Assembly (NCBI RefSeq): GCF_900102145.1
Contig: NZ_FNBC01000024.1
Coordinates: forward strand, 1-35,153
Length of the DNA: 35,153 bases
Source: Thermus arciformis
GTDB lineage: Bacteria > Deinococcota > Deinococci > Deinococcales > Thermaceae
Direction of reading: 5' to 3'
Positions 24,744-30,243 of the stretch are shown piece after piece. Both the position numbers and the translations under genes were made by a program. Every line of letters begins with the position of its first letter. Position 1 is the first letter of the stretch. The notes under the pieces are model-generated. The model worked only from the letters and a program-made list of their open reading frames with translations, was not told where the DNA came from and did no database searches.

Positions 24744-24792
24744 ACTTTACCCGAGCCCGTGGCGTAGAATGTTCCCCTGGACGGGGGTGGCC
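24744..24792. promoter_or_regulatory. Divergent mnmG / dnaA promoter region
   Basis: On the minus strand TAAAGT (24749-24744) precedes the mnmG ATG by ten bases, with GGAGGGCGGG between. On the plus strand TAGAAT (24765-24770) precedes dnaA, with GGGGGTGG (24783-24790) as ribosome-binding site. An ATG at 24769 lies partly in the -10 box and so is unlikely to be the dnaA start. Confidence 0.5.
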
Positions 24793-26106
24793 TTGACCCA
24801 CGAGGCGGTTTGGCAACACGTCCTGGAGCACATCCGGCGCAACATCACCGAGGTGGAGTTCCACACCTGGTTTGAGAGGATCCGTCCCCTGGGCCTAAGG
24901 GACGGGGTCTTAGAGCTCGCCGTGCCCACCTCCTTCGCCCTGGACTGGATCCGGCGGCACTACGCCGAGCTCATCCAGGAGGCCCTGGGCCTCCTGGGGG
25001 CCCAGGCTCCCCGCTTTGAGCTCAAGGTGGTGCCGGGGGCCGTGGTCCAGGAGGACATCTTCCAGGCCTCCCCCAAGCCGGAAAGCGAAAAACCCAAGCT
25101 CAACCCCAAGTACACCTTTGAGAACTTCGTGGTGGGGCCCAACAACTCCATGGCCCACGCCGCGGCGGTGGCCGTGGCCGAGTCCCCGGGCCGCGCCTAC
25201 AACCCCCTCTTCATCTACGGGGGGGTGGGCCTGGGGAAGACCCACCTGATGCACGCCGTAGGCCACTCCGTGGCCAAGCGCTTCCCCCACCTGAAGATCG
25301 AGTACGTCTCCACGGAAACCTTCACCAACGAGCTCATCAACGCCATCCGGGAAGACCGCATGGCGGAGTTTCGCGAGCGCTACCGCTCCGTGGACCTCCT
25401 CCTGGTGGACGACATCCAGTTCATCGCCGGCAAGGAGCGGACCCAGGAGGAGTTCTTCCACACCTTTAACGCCCTCTACGAGGCCCACAAGCAGATCATT
25501 CTCTCTTCCGACCGGCCGCCCAAGGACATCCTGACCCTCGAGGCCCGCCTCCGGAGCCGCTTTGAGTGGGGGCTCATCACCGACATCCAGCCCCCCGACC
25601 TGGAAACCCGCATCGCTATCCTCAAGATGAACGCCGAGCAGCGGGGCCTGAGGGTGAGCGAGGAGGTCCTGGAGTACATCGCCCGGCAGGTCACCTCCAA
25701 CATCCGCGAGCTGGAAGGCGCCCTCATGCGGGCCATCGCCTACGCCTCCCTAAACGGGGTGGAGCTCACCCGCAGCGTGGCCGCCAAGGCCCTCTCCGAC
25801 ATCTTCGCCCCGCGGGAGGTGGAGGTGGACCCCCAGGAGATCGTGCGCAAGGTGGCCGAGCACTTCGCCCTCCGCCCCGAGGACCTCGTGGGCGGGGGCC
25901 GGAGGAAGGAGGTGGTGCTTCCCCGCCAGATCGCCATGTACCTGGTGCGGGAGCTCACCCGCGCCTCCTTGCCCGAGATCGGCCAGCTTTTCGGGGGCCG
26001 CGACCACACCACCGTCCTCTACGCCATCCAGAAGATCCAGGAGCTTTCGGAGAGCGACCGGGAGGTGCAAAGCCTCCTGAGGTCCTTGCGGGAGGTGCTG
26101 GCGTGA
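24793..26106 (+). CDS. dnaA: Chromosomal replication initiator DnaA
   Basis: AAA+ initiator that binds DnaA boxes and melts oriC. About 437 residues from TTG at 24793 ([20 protein letters not shown]); a longer form could start at ATG 24769. Domain I is residues 1-85, the linker includes [14 protein letters not shown], and the AAA+ domain runs from [10 protein letters not shown] with Walker [16 protein letters not shown] (about residue 143) and Walker [22 protein letters not shown]. Domain IV carries the box-reading helix-turn-helix with [16 protein letters not shown] chose TTG because GGGGGTGG sits just before it and the ATG overlaps the -10 box. oriC follows directly. Confidence 0.97.
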
Positions 26107-26110
26107 CCCC

Positions 26111-26214
26111 TGTGGATAACCTGTGGATAACCCTGTGGATAAGTGTCCTTTTCCTGTGGATAACCTTGTGGACAACCTGTGGACAACTTCCCCAGGGCGA
26201 GGCCCTGTGGAAAA
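26111..26214 (+). repeat. DnaA boxes 1-7, forward orientation
   Basis: Seven boxes related to TGTGGATAA: exact at 26111, 26122, 26134 and 26155; one mismatch (TGTGGACAA) at 26167 and 26178; and TGTGGAAAA at 26206. Spacings are 11, 12, 21, 12, 11 and 28 bases, mostly near one helical turn. Confidence 0.93.
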
Positions 26215-26266
26215 CCCGCCACTTATCCACACCTTATCCACAGGCCCGGGCGGGTTTTCCACAGGG
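26203..26266. repeat. 18-bp perfect inverted repeat in oriC
   Basis: CCCTGTGGAAAACCCGCC (26203-26220) is the exact reverse complement of 26249-26266. Each arm holds one variant box (7 and 10); boxes 8 and 9 are in the 28-base centre. Confidence 0.85.
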
Positions 26267-26328
26267 GTTATCCACAGGCCCTTTTCCCTTCCAGACGGCC
26301 TTCCTGCCCCCTTATCCACATATCCACA
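26223..26328 (-). repeat. DnaA boxes 8-13, reverse orientation
   Basis: Six boxes related to TTATCCACA: exact at 26223, 26234, 26268 and 26312; TTTTCCACA at 26255; ATATCCACA at 26320, which overlaps its neighbour by one base. They face the AT-rich zone. Confidence 0.93.
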
Positions 26329-26332
26329 GCCC

Positions 26333-26393
26333 CTACTACTACGGCTACGGATCTTTTAAAGCTTTAAAAAGACTTTAGTAGTAACAGTAGAAG
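26333..26393. other. DnaA-trio-like repeats and AT palindrome (unwinding zone)
   Basis: From box 13 outward: GCCC, then CTACTACTACGGCTACGG (26333-26350), whose complement reads 3'-GAT triplets away from the box, as in the Bacillus DnaA-trio element; then the perfect palindrome TTTTAAAGCTTTAAAA (26354-26369); then in opposite orientation TAGTAGTAACAGTAGAAG (26376-26393). Confidence 0.65.
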
Positions 26394-26405
26394 GAGGAGC
26401 GGAGA

Positions 26406-30243
<3,838 letters not shown>

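Follow-up and report, generated by a model that had tools for sequence, protein, structure and literature searches.

A conserved trio-like block on the opposite strand, across the AT-rich core from the DnaA-trios, in the replication origin of Thermus

The left side of the Thermus replication origin (oriC) appears to be a standard DnaA unwinding system, joined by a trio-like block on the opposite strand that DnaA could capture across the AT-rich core. We hold this reading, which is built on sequence comparison, with somewhat better than even confidence. The starting point was a stretch of 35,153 nucleotides from Thermus arciformis (contig NZ_FNBC01000024.1), referred to here as the window. Its left block, AT palindrome and right block lie where a sequence-only reading of the same DNA had placed them (Table 1).

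Layout of the dnaA-dnaN gap

The gap between dnaA and dnaN measures 299 bp and carries 13 DnaA boxes. Seven boxes in TGTGGATAA orientation (starting at 26111, 26122, 26134, 26155, 26167, 26178 and 26206) are followed by six in TTATCCACA orientation (26223, 26234, 26255, 26268, 26312 and 26320), and the polarity of the seven is opposite to that of the six boxes that feed the left trios. The DnaA protein of the window matches the B. subtilis DnaA of the cryo-EM entry 8btg, a structure of the basal unwinding system (BUS), with an E value of 1e-139 and an alignment along its length. The 13-box array (26111-26328) is convergent, and its spacing is base-exact, without a single indel, in 27/27 Thermus genomes. 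In other families of the phylum the box offsets are nearly the same, most boxes lying within one or two bases. Such rigid spacing throughout the phylum suggests one fixed orisome geometry.

Table 1. Features of the dnaA-dnaN region (window coordinates)
Feature	Position	Strand	Basis
dnaA, initiator gene	24769..26106	+	ORF, 445 aa
Seven DnaA boxes, TGTGGATAA orientation	26111..26214	+	0-1 mismatches; conserved spacing
Six DnaA boxes, TTATCCACA orientation	26223..26328	-	0-1 mismatches; conserved spacing
Last DnaA box, ATATCCACA	26320-26328	-	read from sequence
GCCC spacer separating the left trios from the last box	26329..26332	.	direct reading
Left DnaA-trio block, trios on the bottom strand (top strand CTA CTA CTA CGG CTA CGG)	26333..26350	-	direct reading and genus comparison
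AT-rich core, perfect 16-bp palindrome TTTTAAAGCTTTAAAA	26354..26369	.	direct reading
Right trio-like block TAG TAG TAA CAG TAG AAG	26376..26393	+	sequence, shuffles, genome scan, tree
dnaN Shine-Dalgarno AGGAGG	26392..26397	+	direct reading
dnaN, sliding clamp gene	26406..27524	+	ORF, 372 aa; PF00712 match

The left half is a textbook BUS in the usual order, with tandem boxes (at 26312 and 26320), the GCCC spacer and trios on the bottom strand. The sequence-only reading had recognised this succession of box, GC cluster and trios, and it can be read directly: ATATCCACA, a box of TTATCCACA orientation that directly precedes the left trios, ends 4 bp before the first of them, well inside the 16 bp that a BUS allows. 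Read away from the box, the bottom strand is TAG TAG TAG CCG TAG CCG. As triplets 4 and 6 are CCG, without the central A, the contiguous canonical trios number only three, and a BUS has at least three NAN trios. Trios 1-3 are kept throughout the genus. Three trios are also the minimum named for origin activity in B. subtilis, and strand separation that depends on DnaA and trios has been shown in other species, including Deinococcus radiodurans (PMC8287927). The fourth left trio (26342-26344 and homologous positions) is TCG or CCG, with a middle C, in 26/27 Thermus genomes, which therefore have exactly three contiguous left trios; in other genera of the family this triplet is TAG-like.

The AT palindrome described earlier between the two blocks is indeed perfect in the window, as it is in a small number of other genomes. 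In the remaining ones the core is AT-rich and partly self-complementary, so that perfect palindromy as a conserved property had to be given up. The same applies to the idea that the two blocks keep register: in Thermus they are 23-36 nt apart, and the distances fall in all residues mod 3. The blocks could also be read as arms of an inverted repeat that folds into a hairpin or cruciform and has the AT palindrome as its tip. Although the CTA and TAG repeats are able to pair and the core is partly self-complementary, the arms show no co-variation. Complementarity is 10.70 for a genome's own arms, a value reached by 83% of permutations, versus 10.80 for species-swapped arms; the left CGA/CGG triplets lack TCG/CCG partners on the right, and there is no Rfam match. 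We regard such a structure as the most improbable of the alternatives weighed here.

Sequence and conservation of the right block

The right block is read on the top strand and points back toward the AT core. Its alphabet and polarity agree with those of the trios in B. subtilis and H. pylori (PMC10316083). In the window it offers five to six NAN trios, again above the minimum of three; the final AAG runs into the Shine-Dalgarno sequence AGGAGG by two bases, and therefore five triplets (26376-26390) are free of overlap. Since an adjoining DnaA box is missing, we did not file the block as a second BUS. As had been noted before, no box lies next to it: within the 16-bp limit none was found, and the nearest candidates have 3 mismatches and are not conserved, which also disposes of a hidden box to the right of the block. 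Another candidate partner, the box cluster of opposite orientation, was rejected as well, because the families f2 and f3 have this cluster without the block and a specific link between the two is thus not indicated.

Whether the right-hand triplets are conserved in other Thermus origins had been proposed as the point on which their role would stand or fall. Run as a refutation test, the comparison did not refute it: a right block can be recognised in 27/27 Thermus genomes, together with the boxes, the left trios and the AT core, although it is degraded in a few. Two genomes, those of loci L027 and L028, show an interrupted run (TAA TAG CCG TTA), and in eight Thermus genomes the strict run comprises only three triplets. 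The mean pairwise difference within the genus is 0.28 in the right block versus 0.61 in the spacer before it; it is 0.63 between the Shine-Dalgarno sequence and the start codon, and 0.35 at the fourfold sites of dnaN and dnaA.

Changes were counted on a dnaA+dnaN tree of the genus. In right triplets 1-3 the middle A has undergone zero changes, versus eight each (16 together) at positions 1 and 3. Triplets 4 and 5 are looser and tolerate loss of the middle A; over triplets 1-5 the changes at positions 1, 2 and 3 amount to 10, 5 and 13. Ahead of the CAG anchor the block has changed in triplet number four times on the tree, always by one whole triplet. The changes follow the pattern of an element that is read in triplets. 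Orientation is conserved too, in line with the earlier proposal: the mean longest triplet run in Thermus is 4.11 on the top strand, versus 1.70 on the bottom strand and 2.09 in shuffles.

A purine-rich stretch could also read as triplets by accident and be inherited by descent, and the shortness of the block and its degradation in some genomes are compatible with chance or decay. The genus has, however, diverged by 0.35 at fourfold sites and by about 0.6 in the flanking spacers, a background against which the absence of middle-A changes in triplets 1-3 and the whole-triplet length changes are hard to explain. Local dinucleotide shuffles of the region after the core reach the triplet run of the window with p <=0.004. 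A scan of both strands of 595 kb of Thermus DNA, made up of the window and 28 pieces of genome G007, each 20 kb long, yielded two runs of at least five TAG/TAA/CAG/AAG triplets; one is the right block of the window and the other its counterpart at the origin of G007. A column-permutation null turned out to be anti-conservative, as it was exceeded even by a control without a trio block, from family f5 (1.5 vs 1.0); for this reason we rely on the changes counted on the tree, the shuffles and the genome scan. All three disfavour chance or decay, which we consider very unlikely. Taken as a pattern of sequence evolution, the data support the view that the block is, in Thermus, a triplet array under selection whose orientation is conserved.

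Distribution of the block beyond Thermus

Related genera of the same family have the block in varying length. G049, of genus g5, has a right block of five triplets, and in genera g2 and g3 it comprises four triplets rich in GAG and AAG (mean longest run 4.0 on the top strand, 1.25 on the bottom strand and 2.17 in shuffles). Genus g4, which is probably Meiothermus, keeps a short top-strand block after the core, e.g. GAG-AAG-TAG, despite a distant dnaN: this gene is 154-625 bp away from the unwinding site, and in G042 about 11 kb. The mean longest run in g4 is 3.06 on the top strand, 1.17 on the bottom strand and 1.64 in shuffles; in some g4 genomes the right triplet run is at background.

The g4 genomes are informative with respect to dnaN expression. 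In Thermus the block adjoins the dnaN Shine-Dalgarno sequence, slightly overlaps it and is purine-rich, as would suit a translation enhancer, a leader or a part of a promoter in which the triplet look is incidental. Yet a shorter block is kept in g4, where 154 bp to about 11 kb separate the unwinding site from dnaN, and since the block recurs in a genus with a distant dnaN, the ribosome-binding site of this gene is hardly the explanation. In addition, no promoter or terminator match was obtained, a comparable run occurs nowhere else in the 595 kb, and Priestia has the same unwinding site right before dnaN without the block. A dnaN expression element thus appears unlikely, if still the least improbable of the rivals.

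Some further observations concern dnaN itself. At the g4 loci L035, L038, L041-L055 and L057 the distance between unwinding site and dnaN is 0.15-0.6 kb, or about 11 kb (G042), and many g4 dnaN genes have a promoter-like TTGACT...TAGAAT of their own upstream. Divergent second DnaN-like genes, with 36-48% identity to the DnaN of the window, were seen at L029 (G013:C42:253-1299) and as matches in G028, G029 and G030; they are possibly located on plasmids.

In families f2-f5 of the same phylum the right block is absent, with runs at background, and these families open their origins without it. From other phyla we sampled nine DnaA-bearing records filed as plasmids. Four of them, all Bacillota (Priestia, Acetoanaerobium, Latilactobacillus and Subdoligranulum), gave a BUS origin, none with a mirror block; the remaining five gave no BUS match. 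Given its range across the family and its absence from f2-f5 and from the four Bacillota origins, the right block looks like a feature of the Thermus family.

The two sides also differ in their share of trios. Thermus, where the right block is longest, has the shortest run of left trios (three). Contiguous left trios number six to eight in other genera of the family and six to nine in f2 and f3; g4 has shorter right blocks beside its six to eight left trios, and f2 and f3 have none on the right. This distribution suggests that in Thermus part of the capacity for single-strand binding may sit across the core.

Known systems and a possible route to two helicases

With the BUS and DnaA-trios of B. 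subtilis (PMC8287927, PMC10721633) the left half of the Thermus origin is a full match in tandem boxes, GC spacer and trios. The right block shares the triplet alphabet and the polarity of these trios, but it is located on the other strand, past the AT core, and lacks a DnaA box. The oriC of T. maritima contains an eTrio, a block of TAG triplets away from the boxes that is bound in single-stranded form by box-bound DnaA, and thus illustrates how a block with no box beside it might be captured. This eTrio, however, shares its strand with the annotated trio and lies between the latter and a TTATT motif (PMC10316083), whereas the Thermus block is on the strand opposite to the box-proximal trios and across the AT core. 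A third relative, known from B. subtilis, is the DnaD recognition element (DRE), a motif in single-stranded DNA that has been proposed to guide the second helicase (PMC10201434). Like the right block it is a motif for the strand that the trios do not hold; in contrast, its sequence is complementary to the trios as such, and DnaD is the protein that reads it. The DnaD family (PF07261) was detected in 0/27 Thermus genomes, with B. subtilis and L. lactis as positive controls, and DciA is present in 40/41 relatives searched. The left BUS is a known system. For the conserved opposite-strand trio block across the core no description was found in the open-access papers searched, and within these the earlier remark that a two-sided trio arrangement is undescribed holds.

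Capture and opening by box-bound DnaA via trios is an established mechanism in other bacteria. In Thermus, DnaA on the tandem boxes would capture the bottom strand via the left trios, and the core would open. Opening would expose the top strand, on which the right block would offer three to five more trios in the polarity read by DnaA, so that DnaA could hold both strands. From alphabet, polarity and conservation we infer that DnaA binds the right block. Because no box adjoins it, the block would be captured by looping of box-bound DnaA or by DnaA of the open complex; the looping version is modelled on the single-strand recruitment described for Thermotoga (PMC10316083). In bacteria without DnaD and with DciA, each strand would thereby carry a mark for a helicase of its own. 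Looping and the directing of helicases are likewise inferred. It is a guess that the seven TGTGGATAA boxes could serve the top strand.

The block might instead be a single-strand site for primase, DciA, DnaB or SSB rather than for DnaA. Its complement is CTT-CTA-CTG-TTA-CTA-CTA, and from the geometry the CTA/TTA triplets on each side lie on the template for the leading strand of the fork departing on that side, a placement expected for a primase that reads CTA. Trinucleotide specificity has been studied for the primases of B. subtilis and C. difficile (PMC5429622, PMC5204125). Priming, on the other hand, does not need five in-register repeats, a specificity of the Thermus primase was not found, and the conservation fits the trio alphabet NA[G/A] with its central A. 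We judge a site for another protein to be unlikely, marginally more so than the dnaN element.

Capture by DnaA thus remains the reading that we prefer. Its far-reaching form is that the oriC of Thermaceae has a trio array for each strand and two opposed DnaA assemblies, each dictating the loading of one helicase, so that bidirectionality would be encoded in the DNA without a DnaD-like factor; of the two oppositely oriented box clusters, the one with seven boxes and the one with six, each could then serve one strand. We offer this as a tentative possibility that we would sooner doubt than assert. How the second helicase gets onto the strand left free by DnaA has been named as an open question for bacteria without DnaD (PMC10201434; also PMC10721633). 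For this question, a conserved opposite-strand trio block in a family that lacks DnaD and carries DciA provides a concrete, mutable sequence, and the right block may mark the top strand for the second replication helicase.
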